Assembly: GCF_003443875.1 (NCBI RefSeq) | Contig: NZ_CP027482.1 | Location: 2,604,001 to 2,668,000, forward strand | Length of the DNA stretch: 64,000 nucleotides | Direction: 5' to 3' | DNA from: Aeromicrobium sp. A1-2 | GTDB taxonomy: Bacteria > Actinomycetota > Actinomycetes > Propionibacteriales > Nocardioidaceae | In this document: positions 23,405 through 29,998 of the stretch, piece after piece | How the letters are laid out: every line of letters starts with the position of its first letter | Position numbering within the stretch: position 1 is the first letter of the stretch | Made by a program: the position numbers and the translations under genes | Notes under the pieces: generated by a model | What the model was told of the DNA's origin: nothing | Seen by the model: the letters and a program-made list of their open reading frames with translations, nothing else | The model's database searches: none

Positions 23405-23476
23405 GCCGCCACTCCCACCTGTTACCCGACGAACCCCACCTGCCGAGGGGCTCATTCGCAGAGCCTACAAGGCTGC

Positions 23477-23654
23477 GCACCCACCGGCCACGGCCGGGCA
23501 AGCCCGGCCACCGCGTCACCCAGGCTCAGCACCCCCCGGCCACGGCCGGGCAAGCCCGGCCACCGCGTCACCCAGGCTCAGCACCCACCGGCCACGGCCG
23601 GGCAAGCCCGGCCACCGCGTCACCCAGGCTCAGCACCCACCGGCCACGGCCGGG
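23477..23654. repeat. 52-bp tandem repeat (3.4 copies) between cold-shock gene and cysO
   Basis: Three complete units start at 23477, 23529 and 23581, plus a 22-bp partial copy at 23633-23654. The copies are nearly identical. Each has a GGCCGGGC hairpin arm pair with a two-base centre. The partial copy is the 3' end of cysO, so each full unit carries a duplicate of that coding end. There are no unique spacers. Confidence 0.95.
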
Positions 23655-23908
23655 ATGATGGAGACCTGGGTTCCGGCCGGCGTAGCGGTGTCGAGTCCCT
23701 GCGCGAAGCGCACGTCCTCCTCGGCCACATAGATGTTGACGAAACGGCGCAGCTTGCCCTGCTCGTCGACGACTCGTGCCTTGATGCCGGGGAAGCTGCC
23801 CTCCAGCGAGTCGAGGACCTCGGCCAGCGTGCCACCGTCGGCGGCGACCTGTGACTGGTCGCCCGTGTAGGTGCGCAGGATCGTGGGGATTCGGACGTTG
23901 ATGCTCAC
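23630..23908 (-). CDS. cysO: MoaD/ThiS-family sulfur carrier protein CysO
   Basis: A 92-residue ubiquitin-like sulfur carrier close to mycobacterial CysO: VRIPTILRTYTG, LRRFVNIYVAEEDVRF, SIIPAVAGG. In the known CysO pathway the C-terminal glycine is thiocarboxylated and used by CysM to build cysteine, then Mec cleaves the CysO-cysteine. Here the reading frame does not stop after GG but adds one Cys before TGA, so the protein ends VAGGC. That end lies in the 52-bp repeat. GTG start with an AAGGAGC ribosome site. thrC lies 25 bp upstream on the same strand. Confidence 0.9.
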   Translation of the reverse strand: MSINVRIPTILRTYTGDQSQVAADGGTLAEVLDSLEGSFPGIKARVVDEQGKLRRFVNIYVAEEDVRFAQGLDTATPAGTQVSIIPAVAGGC

Positions 23909-23933: not shown

Positions 23934-25217
23934 TCAGACGATGCCGGAGGCGACGAAGGCCTCGTACGTGGGGGCGATGGTTGCTGCCGGGCCCACCAGG
24001 CCGGTGACCGCGTCGAGGGTCTTGAGGCCGTGTCCGGTGTTGATGACGACGGTCTCGAGCTCGGGGTCGAGCAGCCCGGTCTGGACCAGCTTCTTCAGCA
24101 CGCCGACCGTGGTGCCGCCGGCCGTCTCGGTGAAGATCCCCTCGGTGCGGGCGAGCAGCACGATCGCCTCGCGCACCTCGTCGTCAGAGATGTCCGCGAT
24201 GGCCCCACCGGTCTCGCGGCAGATGTCCAGGACGTACACGCCATCGGCCGGATTGCCGATCGCGAGCGACTTGGCGATCGTGTCGGGCCGGGTCGGCCGG
24301 ACCACGTCCCATCCCTCGCGGAACGCCTCGGAGACCGGCGAGCAGCCGGTGGCCTGGGCACCGAACACGCGATAGGGCTTGTCATCGACCAGGCCGAGGG
24401 AGATGAGCTCCTGGAACGCCTTGTGGACCTTGGTGAGCTGAGAGCCCGATGCGACCGGGATGACGATCTGGTCGGGCAGGCGCCAGCCGAGCTGCTCGGC
24501 GATCTCGTACCCGAGCGTCTTGGAGCCCTCGGCATAGAACGGACGGACGTTGACGTTGACGAAGGCCCAGCCTTCCTCCTCGCCCGCGATCTCGCTGGCG
24601 AGCTTGTTGACATCGTCGTAGTTGCCGTCGACCGCCACGAGGTTCTCGGTGTAGACCGCGGAGTTGATCTGCTTCGGGGTCTCGAGGTCGCTGGGGATGA
24701 ACACCACGGTCCTGATCCCCGCGCGCGCGCCAGCGGCAGCGACCGCATTGGCCAGGTTGCCGGTCGACGGACACGCGAAGACCGTGCTTCCGAACTCACG
24801 CGCAGCACTCAGCGCACACGCAACGACGCGGTCCTTGAACGAGTTGGTCGGGTTGGTGCTGTCGTCCTTGACCCAGAGCTTTGCCAGACCCAGCTCTGCG
24901 GCCAGGTTGTCCGCACGCAGCAGCCGGGTGTAGCCGGGCTCGAGGTTCGGGCTGAGCTCGATGTCGTCGGGGGCGGGGAGGAGCGCCTTGTAGCGCCAGA
25001 TGTTGCTCGGCCCGGCTTCGATCTGCTCCCGGGTGATGACCGGAAAGTCATAGCGGATCTCAAGTGGCCCGAAGCACTCGTGACACACGTAGTGCGGGCC
25101 GAGCTCCTTGGTCGTGCCGCACTCGCGGCAGACGAGCTCAACGGCATTGCCGAAGGCGCCTTCGCGAATCGCGGGGCGGGTGGTTGTCGGTGCGACTTCT
25201 TGAGCAGTGACGGTCAC
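23934..25217 (-). CDS. thrC: Threonine synthase
   Basis: A 427-residue PLP enzyme that converts O-phosphohomoserine to threonine. The N-terminus has a zinc-ribbon-like CxxC pair (C30, C33, C45, C48), then the PLP lysine K128 in NPTNSFKDR, the phosphate loop around STGNLANA, and VASGSQLTKVHKA. The GTG start at 25217 is preceded by GGAGG at 25223-25227; further upstream the frame is non-coding because it holds a SAM riboswitch. It is likely co-transcribed with cysO. The order groEL2, csp, MoaD-like, thrC matches other actinobacteria. Confidence 0.95.
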   Translation of the reverse strand: MTVTAQEVAPTTTRPAIREGAFGNAVELVCRECGTTKELGPHYVCHECFGPLEIRYDFPVITREQIEAGPSNIWRYKALLPAPDDIELSPNLEPGYTRLLRADNLAAELGLAKLWVKDDSTNPTNSFKDRVVACALSAAREFGSTVFACPSTGNLANAVAAAGARAGIRTVVFIPSDLETPKQINSAVYTENLVAVDGNYDDVNKLASEIAGEEEGWAFVNVNVRPFYAEGSKTLGYEIAEQLGWRLPDQIVIPVASGSQLTKVHKAFQELISLGLVDDKPYRVFGAQATGCSPVSEAFREGWDVVRPTRPDTIAKSLAIGNPADGVYVLDICRETGGAIADISDDEVREAIVLLARTEGIFTETAGGTTVGVLKKLVQTGLLDPELETVVINTGHGLKTLDAVTGLVGPAATIAPTYEAFVASGIV

Positions 25218-25230
25218 GCGATCCTCCAGG

Positions 25231-25337
25231 TCATCTTTCCCGGATCGGCTGTCGCCCGGGACGGATTGAGCACCTGGTCGCTGACCGACTGGTTGCTGGG
25301 GTGTCGTAGGGCCGTATCCCTCTACCCCTCGTGATGA
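25231..25337 (-). promoter_or_regulatory. SAM riboswitch (SAM-I/SAM-IV clan) in the thrC leader
   Basis: Read leftward, the leader has the conserved SAM-aptamer core: closing stem TCATC (25333-25337) with GATGA (25231-25235), then GAGGGA, GGCCC, a CCCC-AGCAACC block, AGGTGC followed by AATCCG, and a final GC hairpin CCGGG. These match the S-box/SAM-IV core order and spacing. The 3' closing strand ends 3 bases from the thrC ribosome site GGAGG, so control of translation is plausible. The SAM-I versus SAM-IV subclass is not resolved. Confidence 0.88.
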
Positions 25338-25390
25338 GTGACTCCAATGTAGGACGCGTCTCACGATGTGTCCACTCTGTCCACATGTTG

Positions 25391-25423
25391 GACGGGCCCG
25401 TCTCATTGGACGGCCAAGGGCCG
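25391..25423 (-). terminator. Possible hairpins after the HExxH membrane protein gene
   Basis: CGGCC-AAG-GGCCG (25411-25423) lies 2 bp beyond the stop codon and a 12-bp palindrome GACGGGCCCGTC (25391-25402) follows. They could stop transcription before the thrC leader. No T-run. Confidence 0.35.
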
Positions 25424-25425
25424 CG

Positions 25426-25881
25426 TCAGTGGTGGCGGGAGAATCGCGTCGCCGGAGGCGGATAGTCGCCGTCCGCGAGGTTGGCCAGCCGCTCGAACGG
25501 GTTGTACGACGAGTGATCTCCCGCGATCGCGTACGAGATCCCGACACACAGGAAGTACAGCGGGAGCATCGCGACCCCGAGGACGAAGGCGTACTGGGTG
25601 CAGTGCCGGTCCTCGTGTCGCAGCAGCGCGGGCCGGTCGCGTAGGTGGTCGACATCGTGCTTGCTGGTGATGACGCTGCCGATCGTGAACGCGCCGGCGA
25701 CCGGGAAACCGTAGCGATAGCCCGTGGCGAGGTACGTTCCACGGCCGCGGCCAACGATCGTCGCACCGCCGATCCGCGCGATCAGCAGCCCGAGCGGCGT
25801 GCTGAGGTTGAGCCAGTTGAGCACCGTCCGCACCCGAGTCCAGGGCGTGTGCGGCAGCACCGGAACCGACTCAGATCTCAT
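25426..25881 (-). CDS. Membrane protein with a putative HExxH zinc site
   Basis: A 151-residue protein. Two hydrophobic stretches (LVIARIGG region and FVLGVAMLPLYFLCVGISYAIAG) flank the motif RHEDRHCTQYA, an HExxH pattern. The tail has YNPFERLANLADGDYP, like the NPFExxA motif that follows HExxH in some small membrane-bound metalloproteins. Zinc binding is therefore plausible; catalysis is not shown. The ATG at 25881 gives an 11-bp overlap with otsB. The longer upstream frame is antisense text of otsB. Confidence 0.65.
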   Translation of the reverse strand: MRSESVPVLPHTPWTRVRTVLNWLNLSTPLGLLIARIGGATIVGRGRGTYLATGYRYGFPVAGAFTIGSVITSKHDVDHLRDRPALLRHEDRHCTQYAFVLGVAMLPLYFLCVGISYAIAGDHSSYNPFERLANLADGDYPPPATRFSRHH

Positions 25882-26662
25882 CGGCCAGCTCTTCGAGCCA
25901 GCCCGCCACTGCATCCGGTCCGTCGAGGACCACGTCTGCCCGGGCCACGAGGGCATCCTGCTCGTTCGAGGCCGAGCAGATCAGGAGCCCCCGGACGCCG
26001 GACCCACGCAGGTCATCGACCGCGTCGAAGGCGGGCAGGTCGCCGAGGTCGTCGCCGGCGAAGATGACCTGGCGGGCGCCGACCTCGGCGACCAACGCGC
26101 GGACGACGTCCCCCTTGTCGGTGCCTGGCGCCCGCAGCTCGATGACCTGACGGCCGGGCTCCACCGCCAGGCCGAGTCCGGCGGCCAGCTCCGCGAGCGG
26201 CTCGGCGAGATCGTGGAGCACCTCAGGGTCGATGCCGCGGGTGTGTACCGCGATCGCGAGGCCCTTGTCCTCGATACGCACGTGGTGCGCTCCTCGCTGC
26301 TCCAGCCAGTCCGGCAGCGTCTCGGCGAGGCGGATGATCGCCTCGGAACGCTCGGGCTCGATCGTGACCCCGGTCGCCGCGTCCCACCGCTCGGCGCCGT
26401 ACTGCCCGCAGATGATGAGCCGCTCCAGGCCCTCGACCCCGACGAATCCGCCGAGCTCCAGCGCCTGCCGCACAGGGCGACCCGTGACGATCGCAACCTG
26501 TCCCAGCACCCGGCCGAGGTGCGCGAGAGCAGCGACCGAGCTCGCATGGGCGTAGGCCTGGGTCGGATCGTCGACGATGTGGGCCAGAGTGCCGTCAAAG
26601 TCCAGAGCGAGCAGGGTGCCGCGGGGATCGGAGATCACAGCGGCGCGGGTGGTTCCGGACAT
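25871..26662 (-). CDS. otsB: Trehalose-6-phosphate phosphatase
   Basis: A 263-residue HAD-type phosphatase that removes phosphate from trehalose-6-phosphate to give trehalose, an osmoprotectant. Motif I is LDFDGT with nucleophile D21 and acid D23, motif II VTGRP, and the late motif AGDDLGD. GQYGAERWD and the KGDVVRAL lysine also fit OtsB. Its synthase partner otsA lies 1.9 kb away on the other strand. The gene sits in a leftward run with the VirR-like and DUF3263 genes and overlaps the HExxH protein gene. Confidence 0.92.
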   Translation of the reverse strand: MSGTTRAAVISDPRGTLLALDFDGTLAHIVDDPTQAYAHASSVAALAHLGRVLGQVAIVTGRPVRQALELGGFVGVEGLERLIICGQYGAERWDAATGVTIEPERSEAIIRLAETLPDWLEQRGAHHVRIEDKGLAIAVHTRGIDPEVLHDLAEPLAELAAGLGLAVEPGRQVIELRAPGTDKGDVVRALVAEVGARQVIFAGDDLGDLPAFDAVDDLRGSGVRGLLICSASNEQDALVARADVVLDGPDAVAGWLEELADEI

Positions 26663-28570: not shown

Positions 28571-29998
28571 ATGGCCGTCGGCACCGCAGACTTCGTCGTG
28601 ATCGCCAACCGCCTGCCCGTGGACCGAGTGACCGCTCCGGACGGCAGCACGATGTGGCGGACCTCCCCCGGTGGGCTCGTCACGGCCCTCGAGCCGGTCA
28701 TGCGTCGCAACGGCGGCGCGTGGATCGGCTGGCACGGTGCCGCCGACGAAAAGCTCAAGCCCTTCGTCCACAACGGACTGCACCTGGTCCCGGTGCCCCT
28801 CAGCGAGCAGGAGGTCGCCGAGTACTACGAGGGCTTCTCCAACTCGACTCTCTGGCCGCTCTACCACGATGTCGTGGCGCCGCCTGAGTTCCACCGCGAG
28901 TGGTGGGACTCCTACGTCCGCGTCAACCGCCGCTTCGCCGAGCGAGCAGCCCAGGTCGCCAAGCCGGATGCCGTCGTGTGGGTGCAGGACTACCAGCTCC
29001 AGCTCGTGCCGAGCATGCTGCGCGAGCTGCGGCCCGACCTGCGCATCGGCTTCTTCCTGCACATCCCGTTCCCGCCGGCCGAGCTGTTCCAGCAGCTGCC
29101 CTGGCGCCGCCAGATCCTCGAAGGCCTGCTCGGCGCCGACCTGGTCGGTTTCCAGATGCCAGGAGCCTCGCAGAACTTCGTCCGGCTCGTTCGGCAACGG
29201 GTCGGCCACAAGACGCACCGCGACATGATCTATCTCCCCGACGGACGCACCGTGCTGGCACAGGCGTATCCCATCTCGATCGACGCCGCTGGCTTCGAGG
29301 AGCTCGCCCGAACACCCGAGGTGATCGCCAGGGCTGCGGAGATCCGGGAGAGCCTCGGCAATCCCAAGACGATCCTGCTGGGCATCGACCGGCTCGACTA
29401 CACCAAGGGGCTGCGTCAGCGCCTGCGCGCCTTCGGCGAGCTCATCGGTGAAGGCTCCTTGCACGTCGACGACGCCGTGTTCGTGCAGGTCGCGACCCCG
29501 TCCCGTGAACGGGTCGACCAGTACAAGATCCTGCGCGATGACATCAACCGCCTCGTGGGCCGCATCAACGGCGACGTCGCCCGCATCGGCCAGCAGCCCG
29601 TGACCTATCTGCACGCCTCCTATCCACGCGCCGAGATGGCCGCTCTCTACCGTGCCGCCGACGTCATGGTGGTGACGCCACTGCGCGATGGCATGAACCT
29701 GGTCGCCAAGGAGTACGTCGCCTGCCGATACGACGACCGGGGTGCACTGGTGCTGAGCGAGTTCGCCGGTGCGGCCTCGGAGCTCAAGTCGGCCTATCAG
29801 GTCAACCCGCACGACATCAACGGTATGAAGAGCAAGATGCTCGAGGCCATCAACGCCAGCCCGCGGGAGAATGCACGGCGCATGAAGGCGATGCGCAAGC
29901 AGGTCATGGAGAACGACATCGAGCTGTGGGCCTCCAACTTCCTGCGCGAGCTCACCGCCAGTCGCGATCCGCACGTCAAGAACCCGCGACCGGTTTGA
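28571..29998 (+). CDS. otsA: Trehalose-6-phosphate synthase
   Basis: A 475-residue GT20 glycosyltransferase joining UDP- or GDP-glucose to glucose-6-phosphate. It has NRLPVDRV, the [11 protein letters not shown] loop, [17 protein letters not shown], and the nucleotide-sugar motif [16 protein letters not shown]. It is on the opposite strand to otsB, 1.9 kb away. With otsB it completes the OtsAB trehalose route, used for osmotic and desiccation protection. Confidence 0.95.

Follow-up and report, generated by a model that had tools for sequence, protein, structure and literature searches.

In Wolinella succinogenes, methionine is made by a protein-thiocarboxylate pathway in which HcyS, HcyD and HcyF act together with an enzyme of the MetY type, and which uses O-acetylhomoserine. 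PMC5764234 mentions a protein thiocarboxylate pathway and states that at least one more homocysteine pathway is still to be found and names other organisms, and part of PMC3227635 describes MoeZR, CysO, CysM and Mec in the cysteine pathway of Mycobacterium. According to a passage of PMC11356490, Streptomyces coelicolor apparently lacks metA and metXY. In the same species SCO4293 (putative threonine synthase) and SCO4294 appear among the sulfate assimilation genes, and share their expression pattern with SCO2910 cysM and cysIHCDN, in one section of PMC2267785. Finally, in Streptomyces lividans TK24 an RF00162 element stands before SLIV_16930-SLIV_16925, a gene pair described under threonine biosynthesis in part of PMC8079986.

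A SAM riboswitch in front of a "threonine biosynthesis" operon in S. lividans is already reported, and what we propose here is the reassignment of such an operon to homocysteine synthesis; a ThrC homologue acting with a sulfur carrier as a homocysteine synthase was not found in the literature searched, outside which most subscription papers lie. The operon in question lies in a 64-kb stretch of Aeromicrobium DNA (the window). SLIV_16930-SLIV_16925 is very probably the orthologous operon, and we take SLIV_16930, SCO4293 and the switched gene of the window to be orthologues. In what follows the switched gene is called ThrC2, and the canonical gene in the hom-thrC-thrB cluster of the same genome ThrC1. 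The reading we favor, and consider fairly likely, is that ThrC2 and its own sulfur carrier form a SAM-repressed homocysteine synthase governed by a translation-level OFF switch, which fits the comparisons below better than a threonine synthase does.

The riboswitch and the proposed two-gene operon

The original prediction saw a complete SAM aptamer in a thrC leader at 25218-25337, and proposed that Rfam covariance models be run on it and that leaders in related genomes be surveyed. The Rfam SAM model (RF00162) scores well above its gathering cut-off at 25340-25228, which the predicted interval overlaps almost wholly, so that this part of the prediction is confirmed (Table 1). The match spans the full model (1-108; E 4.2e-14, cmscan of the whole window) and is the single match at gathering score in the window when all 4227 families of Rfam 15 are used and only the best of overlapping matches within one clan is retained. 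It is also the sole RF00162 match in the 3.45-Mb genome by a genome search in which 150 of 220 first-look candidates were scored. The single-sequence fold energy of the window leader does not improve on that of shuffles (z -0.04), and it is the covariance model, together with conservation, that carries the identification. By these criteria the RNA in front of the switched gene is a genuine member of the SAM riboswitch family, from which SAM binding would be expected. The promoter match agrees with the consensus at 9 of 12 positions, ends 5 nt before the aptamer, and is the one such match in 25200-25480, where shuffles give an expectation of 0.0.

Table 1. Features of the thrC2-scp locus in the window
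Feature	Position	Strand	Evidence or remark
Sigma-70-like promoter	25374-25346	minus	TGGACA (25374-25369), 17-nt spacer, TACATT (25351-25346); consensus match alone
SAM riboswitch aptamer (S box, RF00162)	25340-25228	minus	Covariance model, 69.3 bits vs gathering cut-off 44.4
Shine-Dalgarno GGAGG	25227-25223	minus	Read from sequence
GTG start codon, gene behind riboswitch	25217-25215	minus	Read from sequence
ThrC2 (427 aa, first codon GTG), a PLP enzyme of the PALP family with the annotation threonine synthase	23934-25217	minus	TIGR00260, PF00291
CysO-type sulfur carrier (ThiS family), 92 aa, C terminus ...AVAGGC	23630-23908	minus	PF02597
Tandem array, 52-bp unit, 3.6 copies, 96% matches	23470-23654		End overlaps last codons of sulfur-carrier gene (stop 23630)
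Trehalose-phosphatase, upstream of operon	25871-26662	minus	TIGR00685
Member of glycosyltransferase family 20 (type of trehalose-phosphate synthase), upstream of operon	28571-29998	plus	

The carrier gene (scp) begins after a gap of 25 nt behind ThrC2, and the two are presumably co-transcribed. ThrC2 scores 264 bits with the threonine synthase model TIGR00260, above the curated cut-off of 167.1; its best family match is PRK08197 (286 bits, below the cut-off of 303 for that model), and among solved structures it comes closest to the threonine synthase 2zsj (172 bits), cysteine synthases scoring no more than 33 bits. The carrier scores 55.6 bits with PF02597 (ThiS/MoaD family), its top match among solved structures is CysO of M. 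tuberculosis (3dwg, 90.7 bits), and it matches the other CysO of the genome at 57%. It ends in GGC, one residue past the Gly-Gly. The fetched loci supply 113 further carriers, of which 88 have GG as their C terminus while 25 extend 1-6 residues beyond it, the extension being a single C in 16 of these 25.

ThrC2 and the canonical threonine synthase of the same genome

A search with the window protein shows that the genome holds a second, canonical ThrC (ThrC1, 31% identity to ThrC2), which sits between homoserine dehydrogenase (hom) and homoserine kinase (thrB) with lysA and argS beyond (hom, lysA and argS were confirmed by family scan), and for which the closest solved structure is that of M. 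tuberculosis ThrC (2d1f, 431 bits). ThrC2 is thus neither the only ThrC of its genome nor clustered with hom/thrB. The original prediction of a SAM riboswitch on thrC is supported in that the TIGR00260 rules do give the gene behind the aptamer this name, but it is not supported in the sense of an ordinary threonine synthase, the canonical ThrC being the one between hom and thrB. Also encoded in the same genome are MetX, MetY, cystathionine beta-synthase and gamma-synthase-type enzymes, as well as a complete mec-cysO-cysM cluster that includes a JAMM protease (PF14464; L160:2815-3276). The 11 kb around MetX-MetY (locus L095) gave no Rfam match at gathering score. Near the hom-thrC-thrB cluster there is an L31-Actinobacteria ribosomal protein leader (RF03158, 48.8 bits; L093 2181-2226, minus strand).

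Do the two proteins have the same active site? Pocket residues were compared, in 1uim numbering taken from the alignment, among 137 ThrC2 rows (many of them closely related), 7 ThrC1 rows (in which the Aeromicrobium protein appears two times) and a further 11 rows of ThrC-like proteins. The PLP-binding lysine in the SFKDR motif is kept in all 137 ThrC2 rows. Around it ThrC2 has L in place of ThrC1 T88, R in place of N157, S in place of Q164 and S in place of N188 in 137 of 137 rows, and Y in place of R160 in 136 of 137. T88, R160 and N188 are present in all 7 ThrC1 rows (including the doubly counted one), and ThrC2 lacks this canonical set. We take T88, N154, S155, R160 and N188 to be the ligands of the substrate phosphate in T. 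thermophilus threonine synthase. As read from the alignment, the changes show a different pocket in ThrC2; they do not tell which substrate it binds. ThrC2 also has an N-terminal extension with two CxxC pairs, unlike canonical ThrC, and forms one group (SH-aLRT 99) in a quick tree of 60 rows in which long branches meet. A third ThrC-like kind (33-38% identity; L167-L174, L176-L178), with yet other pocket residues, occurs in some Actinomycetota, on haloarchaeal plasmids and on one Chloroflexota plasmid.

The "threonine synthase" label of the switched gene is, judging from these comparisons, probably wrong. One other product to be considered is a different sulfur compound, for example cysteine made from O-phosphoserine, in which case ThrC2 and its carrier would be a second CysM-CysO pair under SAM control. 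The carrier is indeed a CysO paralogue, and SAM-riboswitch regulons in other phyla can take in cysteine genes. Set against this are the complete mec-cysO-cysM cluster that the genome already has, the far greater similarity of ThrC2 to solved threonine synthases than to cysteine synthases (above), and a pattern of gene loss (below) that involves MetX and MetY, which are enzymes of homocysteine synthesis; we regard a cysteine product as quite unlikely.

Distribution of the riboswitch, ThrC2, its carrier and MetX/MetY

Related loci were taken as the best 80 of at least 585, and they extend from Nocardioidaceae to Actinomadura, Lentzea and Streptomonospora. RF00162 is directly upstream of the ThrC2 orthologue in all 80, and the proposed survey of leaders bears out the aptamer part of the prediction. 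The carrier gene is directly downstream of ThrC2 in 72 of them, and one of the other 8 (L085) is cut off within ThrC2. Our sample of the class consists of 148 genomes. With matches of at least 59% identity counted, 102 of these genomes have ThrC2; G007, which has only a 40% match containing a stop, was left out of this count. RF00162 is found in 106 of the 148 at E 0.001 and above the cut-off in 105, and in every one of the 102 ThrC2 genomes it lies on the same strand no more than 500 nt upstream of ThrC2.

A few RF00162 sites, 7 of 109 rows, lie away from ThrC2 (G002, G019, G025 and G050, and second sites in G043, G089 and G119). Their neighbors include an AMP-binding enzyme and a luciferase-like monooxygenase at L161 (G002, whose match is below the gathering score), a GNAT acetyltransferase at L165 (G119) and a 1-Cys peroxiredoxin at L166 (G089).

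The carrier adjoins ThrC2 in 79 of the 102 ThrC2 genomes; in the other 23 no carrier was found beside ThrC2 in the approximately 0.4 to 2 kb of DNA looked at. A CysO-like protein is encoded somewhere in all 102 ThrC2 genomes, vs 22 of the 46 others. ThrC1 was found in 144 of the 148 genomes, and the four without a match (G081, G091, G108 and G135) also lack ThrC2, so every ThrC2 genome has ThrC1 too. In a sample of 198 genomes from the phylum, 78 have a match to the ThrC2 query at E 1e-60, and 70 of these belong to other classes; identity is 49-61% in 65 of the 70 and 33-40% in the remaining 5. Twenty of those 65 loci were picked for spread over families: RF00162 is present in 14, no RF00162 reaching the cut-off was found in the other 6, and the carrier is paired with ThrC2 in 15.

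These counts bear on the idea that ThrC2 is a homocysteine synthase that uses free sulfide (or cysteine) and O-phosphohomoserine, with the carrier serving elsewhere, for example in tRNA or cofactor thiolation. It would accommodate the 23 ThrC2 genes that have no adjoining carrier, including the 6 whose genomes are among the 52 without MetX and MetY (below), but it sits poorly with the CysO-like gene found in every ThrC2 genome and with the ThrC2-carrier pair, which persists in 15 of the 20 loci taken from other classes. We think it unlikely, and favor the carrier as the sulfur donor.

Is the presence of ThrC2 related to that of the known homocysteine enzymes? The cut-off of the curated MetX model was reached by none of the 148 genomes and none of 14 controls, so we set our own threshold for MetX presence at E 1e-90 or better, a limit at which scores drop from 313 to 169 bits. 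The four genomes G016, G041, G071 and G106, whose MetX-like matches are of intermediate strength, were counted as lacking MetX. MetY presence was set at E 1e-100 or better. By these measures MetX is present in 50 and absent from 52 of the 102 ThrC2 genomes, while it is present in 43 and absent from 3 of the 46 others (Fisher p = 4e-8 for MetX absence, a statistic that ignores phylogeny). MetY is absent from all 52 MetX-less ThrC2 genomes; of the 50 that have MetX, 49 have MetY too. Both are absent from 52 of 102 ThrC2 genomes vs 2 of 46 genomes without ThrC2. The two losses are not independent, since MetX and MetY are neighboring genes in the one genome looked at (L095). Among ThrC2 genomes their presence is mixed within ten families, so the loss looks repeated. 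MetA gave matches in 4 of 148 genomes, a single one of them strong: that in G062, which belongs to the three genomes lacking both ThrC2 and MetX. MetX, MetA or ThrC2 is present in 146 of the 148; the exceptions are the ThrC2-negative G007 and G009, which gave no MetX, MetY or MetA matches and in which loss, auxotrophy or an assembly gap is possible. Two genomes of the same genus as G009 (G027 and G040) have ThrC2.

In the class sample, the Aeromicrobium genome and a further 48 with ThrC2 retain both MetX and MetY, so in these ThrC2 need not be the only homocysteine route. An O-phosphohomoserine-dependent cystathionine gamma-synthase could be an alternative replacement for MetX.

The original prediction suggested that SAM could be working as a flow controller at the threonine/methionine fork. 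That suggestion loses ground with the separate ThrC2 clade, its changed pocket, the frequent pairing with a carrier, and the lack of MetX and MetY in about half of the ThrC2 genomes. In its most explicit form ThrC2 would be a real threonine synthase and the riboswitch an ON switch: where MetX and MetA are missing, methionine and threonine would, as in plants, both derive from O-phosphohomoserine, which SAM would steer toward threonine. A plant-like fork is conceivable in the 52 of 148 genomes that have ThrC2 without MetX and MetY, and ThrC2 does pass the TIGR00260 cut-off, but a canonical ThrC is present in all 102 ThrC2 genomes, the 50 ThrC2 genomes that have MetX carry the riboswitch just as the others do, and the carrier partner is left unexplained.

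Direction of control and comparison with known systems

Control was analyzed in 81 leaders, in all of which the first in-frame start codon lies 6-18 nt behind the end of the aptamer match. Transcription attenuation inside the leader was rejected because of this short distance and because no terminator-like site was found in 25200-25480. The Shine-Dalgarno (SD) hexamer was taken as the best match to AGGAGG (just 3 or 4 of 6 positions in 19 of the 81), the P1 helix as 5, 6 or 8 pairs, and SD accessibility was computed with five P1 pairs forced. P1 overlaps the best SD hexamer in 45 leaders and ends 1-3 nt before it in the other 36; in the window leader it ends 2 nt before the hexamer TGGAGG. The mean computed SD accessibility in the 81 leaders is 0.35 with P1 forced, 0.55 with P1 forbidden and 0.40 unconstrained, and compared with forbidding P1, forcing it reduces accessibility by over 0.1 in 47 leaders, with an increase in 3. 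In the window leader the two values are about equal (0.61 forced, 0.62 forbidden), so an effect on the SD there would have to be steric. Within this model the closeness of P1 to the SD in all 81 leaders supports translational repression by SAM.

The original prediction had raised the possibility of an ON switch, as a genetic version of the SAM activation of plant threonine synthase. It now stands as a minor rival. P1 lies no more than 3 nt from the SD hexamer, or overlaps it, in 81 of 81 leaders, as fits repression. In the centroid fold of the window leader a CCAGG/CCUGG pairing could mask part of the SD in the SAM-free state, as an ON switch would need, and was considered as such a device; it was rejected, since the CCUGG partner is kept in none of the five close relatives inspected (L013, L014, L016, L017 and L085). 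Together with the effect of forced P1 on SD accessibility and the points given above, this makes a threonine-directed ON switch very improbable. Complements of at least 5 nt to the SD region occur within the aptamer in 35 of 81 leaders vs 24.4 expected from mononucleotide shuffles, a weak excess found mostly in related Nocardioides-type leaders; no argument is based on it here, though some leaders might use such pairing. The idea that the 5' strand of P1 pairs with AUGAGC at the start codon was likewise set aside, because other leaders start with AUGGCA, AUGACU or GUGACC. Further controls exist besides the riboswitch, since ArgR binding upstream of SCO4293 is reported in passages of PMC3293853 and PMC5839063.

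The linkage of ThrC2 to the riboswitch and to a carrier, the canonical ThrC encoded elsewhere in the genome, the pattern of MetX/MetY replacement and the altered pocket together argue for ThrC2 as a homocysteine synthase. From them we infer SAM binding, the direction of control, and the substrate, sulfur donor and product of the ThrC2 system, which might work as follows: When SAM is plentiful, the SAM-I riboswitch would turn off translation of thrC2-scp, SAM stabilizing P1, whose 3' strand, lying within 3 nt of the SD or overlapping it, would hinder ribosome binding. ThrC2 would most likely eliminate phosphate from O-phosphohomoserine, the carrier thiocarboxylate would add to the PLP-bound intermediate on ThrC2, and a Mec-type JAMM protease would then release homocysteine.

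Somewhat less firmly, though still as the better bet, the sequence comparisons point to a methionine pathway found across the Actinomycetota, in which a ThrC-like enzyme under a SAM riboswitch would make homocysteine directly from O-phosphohomoserine and a dedicated thiocarboxylated carrier; this would explain methionine synthesis in S. coelicolor and other actinomycetes that lack MetA, MetX and MetY, and many "threonine synthase" genes of the phylum would be misnamed. If so, a known gap in the methionine synthesis of Streptomyces-type bacteria, a major antibiotic-producing group, would be filled: a single operon of two genes is what the riboswitch, the sulfur carrier and the pattern of MetX/MetY replacement suggest as the route in S. 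coelicolor. The common "threonine synthase" annotation would then be wrong across the phylum and metabolic models would need changing, and a ThrC-type enzyme would have taken on carrier-dependent sulfur chemistry.

Compared with described SAM-I riboswitches (RF00162), the element has the same full-length covariance-model match and the same position upstream of a biosynthetic operon, but there is no room for a separate expression platform (6-18 nt in 81 of 81 leaders), and its target is labelled thrC and is not a met gene. The S. lividans pair SLIV_16930-SLIV_16925 has the identical RNA family before two genes, there described under threonine biosynthesis and here reassigned to homocysteine synthesis. 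Canonical ThrC (T. thermophilus 1uim and M. tuberculosis 2d1f) shares with ThrC2 the PALP family and the PLP lysine, whereas ThrC2 belongs to a separate clade with an N-terminal two-CxxC extension and changes at T88, N157, R160, Q164 and N188. The CysM-CysO-Mec pathway, whose cluster the Aeromicrobium genome has too, likewise joins a PALP-family enzyme to a ThiS-like carrier of the same family, but here the enzyme is ThrC-like with a SAM riboswitch in front, and where CysM-CysO-Mec converts O-phosphoserine to cysteine, ThrC2 is proposed to convert O-phosphohomoserine to homocysteine. The W. succinogenes pathway would have in common with the one proposed here a carrier-bound thiocarboxylate as the sulfur donor for homocysteine; the enzyme there is of the MetY type, whereas here it is of the ThrC type and often occurs in genomes without MetX and MetY.
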